This document shows, in pieces, positions 51,374 through 57,395 of a DNA stretch of 64,000 bases (positions within the stretch are counted from its first letter, which is position 1; each line of letters opens with the position of its first letter). The DNA comes from Gloeophyllum trabeum ATCC 11539 (taxonomy: Eukaryota; Basidiomycota; Agaricomycetes; Gloeophyllales; Gloeophyllaceae). The notes below the pieces were generated by a model. The model worked only from the letters and a program-made list of their open reading frames with translations, did not search any database and was not told the DNA's origin. The stretch lies in the NCBI RefSeq assembly GCF_000344685.1, contig NW_006920413.1:1801717-1865716 (forward strand), written 5' to 3'. The position numbers and the translations under genes are program-made.

Positions 51374-54300
51374 TCAAGCTTGCTTCTCGCCCTTCTGACC
51401 TTGTGACTTCCGGAACTCTGTCATTGCTTGTCTCCTCATGAACCACTGGAACAAAGGGATCGTCAAACACGAGACGGCGATCCATGCAAATAGAACACCG
51501 AAGTTCAGCCCAACTGCACTCAGAATTAGAATTGTGCTCTAAAGCGAGGAGATGATTACAGCAGACCTTGGTTCCTGGTACTGAACACGATGGTTCTGAC
51601 GGCGCGTGAGACATTGTAGAACGGGGCGGCGTATCCGTAGCGGAAGATCGTAGGCAGGAGCTCGATCGGGTAGTATGATACGGAGACATTGGCTGTAACG
51701 TCGTGGTTGGACTTCAGCGCACCCCCCTTGCATGAGATGTTGAACACATACCGATTAGCCATAGGACAAGGAAGAAGGGTATGAATTTCGGCGTCAAGAT
51801 GGTCACCAGAGCCTCCACTGCGAGGCCACTTTTACAATGCATTACGTATCAACTCCTGGGCCGGTATATCAAGTAAGGCACTTACAGAGCGGTCATCCCT
51901 ACCCAGGCTAGCATCCAGAATGCCACAAAACCACCATTTCCGAATCTACTGTCACCTATCAGACGCGAACACGCTTGAGACAATGGGACGACTCGCCTGC
52001 GATTAAATGGTACCTTGAAGGCAAGGCTGACAAGTGCGTAGTTTAACTAGGATGTGTATGAGGTTTCTAAAACACGATGAATTGCAGCTATTGCCCGCTT
52101 ACCGAGATCAAGAAGTAAAGAGATGGAGGAACGATTAGACGAAGCTTGATGAGAGAAGACAGTTTGAGCCGGCGATCGAGGCCAGATACCATAACGCGCG
52201 CGGTAAAGTTCATTAGCTACCATAGCGACCTATCAGTCCTCTTGCGACGGGGTCATATGACAGGGAATCGGCTTACCACCGTGATAAACTGAACACAAAG
52301 GGGCACGGCTCTGTCAGCCGGGGCTACGCAATGAGCGCAAAAAACGTACAGCAAGAATGAGCAGATAAATCAGGCCGACGAAGTCAACGGCGGAAGCGCT
52401 ACGCAGCAGTCCGAGTCAGCACTGAAAGGATAGTCAGGATACGCAATTCTCGACATACACTTCCACGTCGAACGGCCGGACATTCTGTACAGCATAGGAA
52501 ATAGGAGTCGTGACAACTTGAGGTGCGCGAGCAAGCAGGTTGCCTATGTTCGCTGCGCTTGCAGGTAGTTGTGTTACGTATCTATTGGCGAAAAGCGTGG
52601 AGATGTTTTGGAGTGACATGGTCATCTGCAATCAATTAGCGACAAATATGCCTCAGGCACTGAGGTTAACACCATAGGTAGGATAATAAGACGGCTAGAA
52701 GCTCGCTGAGTGAGCTCACGAGAAGTGGATAACTCAAACACGTACTAGGCGTTCTCGTTCCTGGCTTCAGATCCGAACATCGTGACAGCTGACGATCCAT
52801 TATACGATGCGTCTGCAGACGCCGCGGCAGAATTCAGGGAGTTTGTCGCTCCCGGATTTACTGATTCCTATGGGTGAGTGCTTCCCTCTCTGATCCAAAT
52901 GAATATAATTCACTCACTGGTGACGGCGAGCCAGCAGTCTTCGTTGACGATATGCGTTGGAAGGTCAGACGGACCATTAGGGAAATTGCTGCTGGGAAGT
53001 ATATGCCACGATATCTGCTCCTTAGGTCCAGTGAGGCTATAGATATTTTGTGAAACGAAGGTCCCAATCTCTCCCCCGTCGAAATCCTGATTCGTCCTAT
53101 CCGGAGTCGCATGCAAGGCATGCGTGTGCCACCTGGGTAATGTGAGATCTACCGTGACGTCAGGAGTTTCTATCCAAAATGGCACGTCGGTGCATATGGG
53201 GCGGAATTTGCTGGAATCAATGTCAATCTTGGTCCTGAAACTGGTGCCTTTGAAGGTCATCAGGGCTATATAGAAGTGCATGATTCAGCCATGGACACGG
53301 AGACGAGGCACATGCTATTATTTACCATTCTCATCCTTGAGCAATGGCTTGTCGATGATGTTGTGGTCATTGACGTAGGTGTTTATCTCATATTTGTGGA
53401 AGTCGACCTTGGCAGCATAGCGCATGGGCACGAACCGGTAGTAGTCACCCGGAGGGCCGGAAGTCCAATCTTTGGCCAAGTCAGTGAACATATTGATATG
53501 ATCGCGTATGAGGTAAAAGACAGGCTGGCGCAAAGAAATCGAGAAGGACCATAGCCGCTCTGCGTTCCATGCTAATGGTGTAGGCATTTCGCATCGAACC
53601 TGACAACAGACACTTCAGGCATGTCGACTGTAAGAGTATAACCGACCTACCCGGCAGGATTCAGCCTTCAGCAGCCGGATATCGTTGAGCGTGGACGTAA
53701 CTCCGACATCATCTAGATGAACCTCCAACTGCCCCTCGTATCCGCCGGGGCTAATTACCATGGGCACCGTGTAACTGATTGTAGAGCCATCCCCGGCCTT
53801 AATATGAATATGGGCAGCTTCTCGTGTTTTCGGCCGAGGAACGTCCACCAAGCCATCCCACATCCAATTCTGCAGGCAGGTTTGTAAGTAACAGCAGATC
53901 CAAGTCAAGCACAGACGGCTGACCTTGGATGCCTCGCGAAACGGTATGTGGAGGGTAGTGCCGCCTCGAAGCTCCACAAAGACCTTGAGCGTTGTCCACA
54001 TCCGCTTGTCGCCAGGCCGAAGAAAGGCGGTGGGCTGCATGTCGTGATACGACGGAGGAAAGAAAACACGTTGTAATTCCGTCCTACAATCGTCTCAGTC
54101 CGCTGAAGCAGCACGAACATCATTTTCCGTACCTTTGACGATCTGCCCACGGGCCGTAGCGCACAAAGCCGCCATGAACAATAATCTCAGCGCCCCATTC
54201 CGGAGCTAGATCACCATTTCCGATCTCGAAGTCCGCAGACCCAGTTCTGATCTGAGCCTCTAGCGGTGGGACGGTACCAACCACGTCAGCGTAATAAAGG

Positions 54301-55749
54301 AGCTCCAGCTCGGGAGCCTCGAGGACATGACGTTCCGCCGCGTACTCAAGTTTCAAGGCTTCGGGCCCTACGGGGCTGATAATCTCGCCGCCCTTGTTGG
54401 TCCTCCACCACGCACGTATACCGACGCCATGAGCCTGAATCCATTTACTGGGTTCAGACTTCACCAGCCGCGATAGTTTCAGACGACGCCATAGTTTGGA
54501 GAAGGCGTGATAGGATAGGTATGGGCGCAGACTCGAGTACCTGTTTTGATTCATAAGTAATTTACGCGTGCTGATTGAGGGCTGAAATGCTCACTTGGAG
54601 TTCTTGACCTTCTCATCTACCTTCTGTCCAAATTCAGCCATAGGAGACTGGAAGCTAGTGTTGTCCACATAATGTGAAGACACGTTCTTGAACTTGATGT
54701 TCAGAAGTTGCTTATGAATATCGAACTTAGACTTGGACTGGGTATTCAACAGAAATCAGACACCAGAACTCGTGAAGGCTGGATCAGCCGTAAAACACGC
54801 ACCGGGACAATCCCGAAAGTACCCTCAGCTTCCTTGAATTCCAATATCAAGAGGTTGGGTGTGGAAGCGTTCCCACAGATTACGGCTGCTTTATTTACTT
54901 CAATACCTAACGGTAGCAGGTCCGTTGGATCGAGTCTCGGTAGCTGGCTCTTGAACCAGGCAATGGCTTTTCGGACCATTTGTGGTGGGCCGATGGATCT
55001 GGTAGGGTACAGAGACGGTGGATACAAGGGAGTTGCTGTGCCAAAACAGTCAGTGTGTTTATGCAAACCACAGAAGGGTTAGGGTACCTTCAGGAGGGAC
55101 GGGAGATTTACGGAATGTATCGCGCGAACGTGACCGCCTATTCTCTGAGCTAAAGCGAGGGGTTCCCATTAGGTGATCTCCGGCACTGCGCAATTTCTCC
55201 GCGATATCGTCATATGCAGCAGTTCTGTTATATAGGAACCACTCGAGGCCTTGGATGGATATTTGAATCCGGCATGAGGGAGGCCAAGAGGACTTGGTGT
55301 CTAGAGCATTATAACCGTCTCTGAGATTGGTGCGTACCAACTCAGAAGAGTGAGGAATACACACGTCCGAGATCTTCGCCACCTATCCGAGAGTTGTATA
55401 GGTCCTCCTCGCCCGCCGGCGAACGAATCCAGTAGCGCCAGCTAACCTGCCCCTTGACTATCTTAATCGTCTGGTTGCTGGAATGGTATCTAAGGTTCTT
55501 GAACGAGAGTCTCCCAGCAAGTAAAGATACATGGATTGCCCCTGCACAATAATTAAGTACACAGGTTCGTGGAACACAGCCAGCATGCTCACCAAATTCC
55601 ACCCATGTACTTGAGCTTCCTTGGTTCCAGAGCGCGACACGCAGAAGGAGGGTCAGAAACAAAGATATGAAGCGGTTCCAAAAGAACAAGTATAAGATGA
55701 CAGCCAGGACAATGACGGCGCATACGATCAGCAGCAGGTAGTTCAGCAT
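51374..55749 (-). CDS. Chimeric gene: Csf1 (BLTP1) N-terminus fused to DUF3533 membrane protein
   Basis: About 1,080 residues are predicted from roughly twenty exons. The first 720 residues are the start of Csf1, a bridge-like lipid transfer protein: N-terminal membrane helix (LLLIVCAVIVLAVILYLFFW), GAIHVSLLAGRLSFKNL, WFLYNRTAAYDDI, VHGGFVRYGPWADRQR, YVNDHNIIDKPL and PFWIETPDVTVDLTLPRW. Csf1 is normally about 3,000 residues, so most of it is absent. In the same exon the frame continues into a DUF3533 (Sng1-like) protein: DFDGGEIGTFVSQ, FPNGPSDLPTHIVNEDCWL, NPGATNSL, then several membrane helices, SYYPIELLPTIFRYGYAAPF, and the end FAWIAVSC...QWFMRRQA. The first membrane helix of DUF3533 is missing. 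No stop or frameshift is seen on either side, and the intron phases fit. It could be a real fusion, or two genes joined by assembly error. Confidence 0.8.
53087..53101 (-). other. Junction between Csf1-derived and DUF3533-derived coding sequence
   Basis: On the minus strand, TLPRWHTHALHATP (Csf1-like) is followed by five residues (DRTNQ) that I cannot assign, then DFDGGEIGTFVSQ (DUF3533-like). There is no intron, N, stop or frame change at the joint. A short palindromic GCATGC lies just on the Csf1 side (two copies at about 53108-53123). Confidence 0.75.
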
Positions 55750-56449: not shown

Positions 56450-57395
56450 TCATCCACCATCATCGTCGCCCAGCCCACCTGGAACACGACTTGGCGGCTC
56501 GGCCTCCCGCTCCTCATTATTTCGTCTCCTCGCCGCCATTCTCGCCGCTCTGGCCCTCACTATCCTCTGCAGGCTGTCCGGCAACTGTCCCAGTCCAGCG
56601 GGCGTCACGTTCGGCATTGGGAGGCCATCCTCCGGCTCCGGCGCGGGAGGCGGGGGACGTCGTATGCGGTCTATGACGGTAGATAGCCGGAGTTCAATAA
56701 TGTACGGTGATTCGTCGGATTCTGGCGGTTTTGAATTAGCATCGGACGGGGGTGGAGGAAAGATACTGGAGCTCAAAGGGCTAGCGCATTCCGACGCGTC
56801 TTCGGCCGTTGGGAGCAGAGAATATGTTGCGGAGGGTGCGATGGAGGGAAGAAGGGGGTCTGGGGTATCATCGGGAGATGCCATGATGTATGAGGTTTCA
56901 TACGCGATCGTTGTGAGCGCCATTTGGAGCAGTACGATGAGGAAGTCAAGAGATAATAGCTGGAGCTTGTTCGGGACATGTGCTACATAGCACGAACGGG
57001 TCAGCGCCCAAACGCACGGAGACAACAATGCCCAAATAATCTTCGTGAGTGACGCACCCATGCCGACGAAGTCGAGGACCGCCGCCCGCCCGACCGCTGC
57101 GCCCTCCGCCGCGTGCGACCATATGCTCCCCGCATTGAACAGCAAGATGAGGAAAAACCAGAAACGCAAAGAGCGCTTCGGGTCGAGGTCCCTAGGCCTG
57201 GAGAACTGGAACTGGGTTGCTGAACGGCATATGAGGGGCCAGACTCGCGGGGAGAGGAAGAATGACAGCGTGAACAGCTGGTATAGCAGGGTGTCGAGCT
57301 TCAATACGAACTTAGATCAGGGCATTTCATGAGAGATACAGCACACTCACAGACTGGATGATGTGCTGCCGCTGAGCATAGTATCGTATACGCAT
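56450..57395 (-). CDS. DUF1746 membrane protein, Dsc4-like
   Basis: Two exons (57395-57351 and 57298-56450) give 894 nt, or 297 residues. The start MRIRYYAQRQHIIQS joins across a 52-nt intron to LDTLLYQLFTLSFFLSP; this phase is the only one that gives a continuous DUF1746 motif. Hydrophobic helices follow (LRFWFFLILLFNAGSIW, LLSLDFLIVLLQMALTTIAY), then a cytosolic tail rich in Pro, Ser and acidic residues ending GLGDDDGG. In fission yeast Dsc4 carries this domain and belongs to the Golgi Dsc E3 ubiquitin ligase that cleaves SREBP and degrades orphan membrane proteins. The assignment rests on the domain pattern. Confidence 0.78.

Follow-up and report, generated by a model that had tools for sequence, protein, structure and literature searches.

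An in-frame Csf1-DUF3533 chimera in Gloeophyllum trabeum and the balanced three-break rearrangement that probably produced it

Introduction

We describe here an in-frame fusion between the N-terminal part of Csf1/BLTP1 and a DUF3533 membrane protein, found in a stretch of 64,000 nucleotides (the window; C4:1,801,717-1,865,716), together with the larger exchange to which this fusion belongs. Genome searches, which covered 35.5 Mb in 34 contigs, lead to the missing parts of both genes, each of them joined to one part of a third gene that we call X. Six pieces of three genes are each used once, in the combinations Csf1-N/DUF3533-C (joint 1), X-N/Csf1-C (joint 2) and DUF3533-exon1/X-C (joint 3), and all three joints are on contig C4. 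The explanation that we consider probable is a balanced three-break rearrangement, an inverted transposition, which would be recent, proper to this strain or haplotype, and similar to a small chromoplexy chain.

The chimeric gene in the window

The chimera is modelled with 21 exons on the minus strand, from 55749 to 51374, and it encodes 1088 residues with its sole stop codon at the end. GT-AG borders are found for 19 of its 20 introns. A probable GC-AG intron (51996-51949, minus strand) lies in the DUF3533 part, where it is required for the match to a DUF3533 paralogue on contig C8, and if it is retained the frame stays open for 1104 residues, 16 of them extra. The Csf1/BLTP1 N-terminal part (53087..55749, minus strand, ATG at 55749) comprises exons 1 to 9 and the first part of exon 10, and accounts for residues 1 to about 715 together with a few joint residues. 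The DUF3533 part, which is devoid of its first exon (51374..53086, minus strand, stop codon at 51376-51374), comprises residues 722-1088 in 12 exons, the remainder of exon 10 among them.

Within the exon at 53265-52918, Csf1 sequence passes into DUF3533 sequence with neither a stop nor a frameshift. The changeover takes place between residues 714 and 722, the codon of residue 722 starting at 53086, and joint 1 is placed at 53080..53110 (minus strand; C4:1,854,803), where Csf1-N meets an apparent DUF3533 intron tail followed by exon 2 from 53086. As we read its sequence, the C8 paralogue starts a new exon exactly at the position matching 53086, so the ..CAG just before 53086 resembles the 3' end of a DUF3533 intron which has become coding. 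A genome search with the 601 bases around joint 1 gives a single match, the joint itself. We confirm the in-frame joint as a genuine feature of the assembly. The window contains a single run of N, at 1-572, which is a gap or a withheld stretch and is followed by recurring AACCCATA-type sequence.

The upstream half is assigned to Csf1 by direct homology: residues 1-714 of the chimera share 48% identity with P0001 (347/717 positions) and residues 13-711 share 48% with P0002 from Athelia (340/715). In a Pfam scan of the chimera, where exons were matched singly as six single-exon pieces, three upstream pieces match Csf1_N (E 1.3e-7, 3.4e-7 and 0.0027, all below the curated cut-offs) and two of these three also match BLTP1_N, again below the curated cut-off. 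The coverage of Csf1_N in the window extends from profile positions 36 to 685, in pieces that are each below cut-off. The three downstream pieces match DUF3533, and the last of them, at 40 bits against a cut-off of 27.6, places this half in the family by profile; the two others stay below cut-off, with E 0.02 and 0.05 (14.3 and 13 bits). From residue 722 onwards, the chimera is identical to residues 91-145 of the C8 paralogue at 28 of 55 positions (51%). Two further DUF3533 genes are present in the genome (C4:694500-698200 and C8:1634500-1638500), the second being the C8 paralogue. A protein search with one exon gave no match, and the search with the whole chimera returned as its third match P0003, a distant Csf1 relative with 29% identity.

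Hydropathy predicts a strong hydrophobic helix at residues 5-23 and no helix between residues 23 and 883. The chimera thus has the N-terminal homology and the N-terminal membrane helix of the Csf1/BLTP1 proteins. It does not have their full-length groove, as the homology to P0001 stops at residue 714. Likewise, the first DUF3533 membrane helix, which should precede the large domain, is missing. The earlier note, made from the sequence of the window, had described an in-frame Csf1-DUF3533 fusion without the last three quarters of Csf1 and the start of DUF3533. Our analysis supports the chimeric open frame, with Csf1 broken at about residue 715 and the first DUF3533 membrane helix lost from this gene; the DUF3533 first exon is found elsewhere, as detailed below.

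The rest of Csf1 and its junction with gene X

When the genome was searched with P0001 (E up to 10), all ten matches fell at two Csf1 places, six in the window (P0001 8-696) and four at C4:1,493,809-1,495,069 on the same strand (P0001 732-1074). The twelve matches of P0002 are distributed between the Csf1 gene of the window (seven), the DUF1746 neighbour of this gene (one) and the region around 1.495 Mb (four, one of them weak, with E 0.03). On C4, the Csf1 sequence beyond the break starts near 1,495,210, 360 kb from the window joint, and reaches 1,493,510 or lower. At the protein level, P0001 pairs with the window protein at 8-693 and with the 1.495 Mb protein at 707-1094, and P0002 pairs with the former up to 868 and with the latter at 875-1340. 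Homology thus supports the Csf1 remainder up to about residue 1,340 of P0002. Further down on the same strand are open frames of 921, 635 and 468 residues, before which P0001 and P0002, both partial records, come to an end. These frames have no match to a Pfam family, Csf1_C included, and we take them, by position alone, to be the rest of Csf1.

An unrelated gene, X (ATG at C4:1,497,093), leads into the Csf1 remainder at about C4:1,495,210, sharing its exon and its reading frame. The resulting X-N/Csf1-C model, followed up to L018:520, has 1067 residues without a stop. With more of its sequence lying 360 kb away, Csf1 has been cut and moved, and not shortened by loss.

The N-terminal part of Csf1 is found once. 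In the Csf1_N profile search of the genome, all four matches are in the window locus (all below the curated cut-off), and neither this profile nor the genome searches with P0001 and P0002 found a second Csf1 N-terminus in the assembly. An open frame with DUF1746 (56450..57316, minus strand) lies upstream of Csf1 in the window. P0002 has the same domain joined to Csf1, and this shared neighbour suggests that the 5' side of Csf1 is still in its old place. The DUF1746-type protein and Csf1 are a single protein in the Athelia record and two adjacent genes in the window; P0002 is probably an annotation fusion of the two. Athelia, Heliocybe and Neolentinus, the named relatives that were found, are Agaricomycetes.

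The first exon of DUF3533 and the end of X

The DUF3533 exon 1 is located at C4:2,358,793-2,359,125 (plus strand), 504 kb from the window joint and on the other side of it from the Csf1 remainder. A search with the C8 paralogue matches it at C4:2,358,892-2,359,128 on the plus strand with 39% identity; at the protein level, residues 17-90 of the paralogue pair with the exon 1 piece, identical at 30 of 76 positions. The piece also matches the DUF3533 profile at positions 2-37 (20.4 bits, E 0.0003, below cut-off). This exon is spliced in phase, through the intron at C4:2,359,126-2,359,179, to 224 residues of X-C, all of which are identical to residues 610-833 of P0004.

The presence of both missing pieces on the same contig refutes, for this assembly, the deletion of the last three quarters of Csf1 and of the start of DUF3533 that the earlier note had proposed. 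Only the joint itself speaks for such a loss, along with a genome search with the Csf1_C profile that gave no match, though this profile is equally silent in 14 control genomes, and we give this explanation practically no credit. The search for a Csf1 remainder that the note had called for was successful with P0001 and P0002 and silent with Csf1_C, and no second Csf1 N-terminus, for which it had also asked, was found in the assembly. We also rejected the insertion of a Csf1 piece into a DUF3533 intron: exon 1 is at C4:2.359 Mb, whereas the sequence upstream of 55749 carries the DUF1746 neighbour known from P0002.

The two pieces of X (X-N at L018:2214-4093 and X-C at L024:5180-5854) are without Pfam match. 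In a protein search with X-N, three proteins reached E 0.001 or better among 7992 scored candidates, namely P0004, P0005 (Heliocybe sulcata) and P0006 (Neolentinus lepideus). The last two have 44% identity to X-N. P0004, which has 833 residues and the source label 'lgn', agrees with X-N at 606 of its residues 1-608 and departs from it at the joint; over both X pieces, 830 of the 832 compared residues are identical. In a genome search with P0004 (E up to 1), the four matches consist of three to these X pieces and a stray one (E 0.039). Judging from the sequences, P0004 is probably the intact X of the same species, its two residue differences being such as another allele or strain would have. 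Relatives run unbroken across every cut: P0001 and P0002 for Csf1, P0004-P0006 for X, and a paralogue for DUF3533.

Closure of the exchange

Very few residues are left unmatched between the paired pieces: 13 (with P0001) or 6 (with P0002) for Csf1, 1 for X and 0 for DUF3533. Little or nothing has thus been lost, in terms of coding sequence only. The three chimeras, as modelled, contain no stop or frame break, which fits a recent event. In the joint flanks (up to 3 kb per side), no shared sequence is found beyond one 15-base match with E 0.025. This near-absence fits a repair by end joining. A repeat-mediated exchange was rejected on the same comparison and on the genome-wide uniqueness of the window joint.

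The joints divide C4 into four segments: A, which extends as far as the Csf1 remainder, then B of 360 kb, C of 504 kb, and lastly D. The present order is A, B, C, D and the older one is A, C, reversed B, D, which makes the change an inverted transposition. How the segments are ordered and oriented may hinge on scaffolding, since the 572-N run of the window falls inside B; this does not apply to the joints. By signed-segment arithmetic on these positions, two successive inversions would lead to the same end state, the first turning C and reversed B together (with breaks in Csf1 and X) and the second turning C alone. We regard this two-step path as quite improbable, because the second inversion must cut the Csf1/X joint again at or very near the same place and no leftover coding piece is found at the joints.

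The most serious competitor of the three-break rearrangement is an assembly artefact, in which three chimeric joins would hide a real chromosome with all three genes whole. Several observations could be read this way: P0004 carries X whole and nearly identical to both pieces, contig C4 has at least one N run, and the protein search turned up no record of the chimera, the 1088-residue protein being absent from the three proteins that passed E 0.001 (7990 scored candidates, those sharing most words). An intact relative and a missing record are, however, expected equally from a change that is specific to a strain. Misjoins usually occur at repeats or gaps; here, all three joints are inside genes, there is no N in loci L013-L018 and L024, and the window joint, the only one for which uniqueness was assayed, is unique in the genome. 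Independent errors are also not expected to close a three-way exchange in which every end is used once. It is mainly because the exchange closes in this way inside coding sequence that we prefer a real event and consider an artefact unlikely, though by no means negligible.

Origin and consequences of the rearrangement

In the balanced rearrangement that we favor, one chromosome (C4) would have been cut within Csf1, within X, and within DUF3533, either inside its first intron or beside it. The six ends would then have been sealed in the wrong combinations, leaving hardly any coding sequence missing, presumably through end joining after the breaks had arisen in a single burst. The change appears, from the comparison of sequences, to be younger than the species, and it may be carried by this strain or nucleus only.

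The event would have disabled Csf1 and X, and probably DUF3533. For Csf1, this is because the groove is cut after about one quarter of the length of the yeast protein. For DUF3533, it is because the domain that would otherwise come behind a membrane helix directly follows the groove. The large domain of DUF3533 proteins usually sits across the membrane, behind helix 1, and since the chimera has no helix between residues 23 and 883, one of the halves is likely to be on the wrong side. The ER-anchored chimeric protein foreseen by the earlier note is possible, but the topologies of its two halves appear to be at odds with each other. The viability of the strain could be explained by an intact partner nucleus or by the dispensability of the genes.

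Another proposal is that the chimera is a selected new gene, working as a short ER-anchored lipid groove with a membrane tail. The 1088-residue open frame, the conservation of all splice phases and the strong hydrophobic helix at residues 5-23 would be in line with it. In a change that appears younger than the species, however, an open frame needs no selection, and the helix due before the first large domain of DUF3533 is lacking. In addition, given the window joint, the probability that each of the remaining two joints brings its pieces together in sense and in frame is about 1 in 18 (1/2 x 1/9), so in-frame joining is weak evidence, suggestive at most and no proof of selection. We therefore hold a selected function to be highly improbable. 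The event that we favor probably breaks three genes rather than builds a useful one. A more ambitious scenario, which is speculative and to which we give rather little weight, would have three active genes of a mushroom-forming fungus broken together and rejoined in a closed, chromoplexy-like chain, giving three sense in-frame chimeras, all of them transcribed, in a haplotype that exists beside an intact one.

If it is real, this would be a well-resolved and very young fungal three-break rearrangement with every gene end accounted for, and a natural case for the origin of such chains in a single event and for the birth of in-frame fusion genes. It also illustrates how a gene that seems lost, here Csf1, can instead have been cut and moved. 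Should it be an assembly error, the annotation of genes would be led astray at three places.

Comparison with known systems

Csf1-type proteins are described as having an ER membrane helix at their start, followed by a long groove, and yeast Csf1 has 2958 residues (PMC7613979), of which the part kept in the chimera represents about one quarter in length. The chimera shares with these Csf1/BLTP1 (Tweek) bridge-like lipid transfer proteins the N-terminal helix and the beginning of the groove, but here the continuation lies on another gene. The DUF3533 (PF12051) membrane proteins are discussed among the families of the ABC-2 membrane clan (PMC9408558). The chimera keeps everything from their exon 2 to the stop, but the first exon, which carries the membrane helix, lies 504 kb off, at the head of another chimera.

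At the level of the chromosome, two large segments (360 and 504 kb) have been reordered and reoriented, as in the simple inversion or inverted transposition polymorphisms generally known in fungi. In contrast to these polymorphisms, all three breaks are inside genes and all joints keep the reading frame. Among the open-licence papers listed by our searches, as judged from their titles and abstract openings, we found no comparable fungal case: a paper on Candida tropicalis brings up chromoplexy when drawing a parallel with tumours (PMC7292649), and an Ostreococcus paper concerns an alga (PMC13390643).

Chromoplexy is described in human tumours as closed, balanced chains with breaks in genes and fusion products (PMC12027847, PMC5378225), of which a NUT carcinoma report gives an in-frame fusion gene product (PMC5378225). 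It involves 3-7 chromosomes and, on average, 5-40 breakpoints (PMC12027847, Table 1). Two of these usual marks, namely several chromosomes and 5-40 breakpoints, are absent here, where three breaks are all on one contig of a fungal genome, and we do not file the rearrangement as a member of this class for this reason. It nevertheless resembles chromoplexy in its closed chain, its balance (in coding sequence), its breaks in genes, the lack of long homology at its joints and the fusion genes that result.
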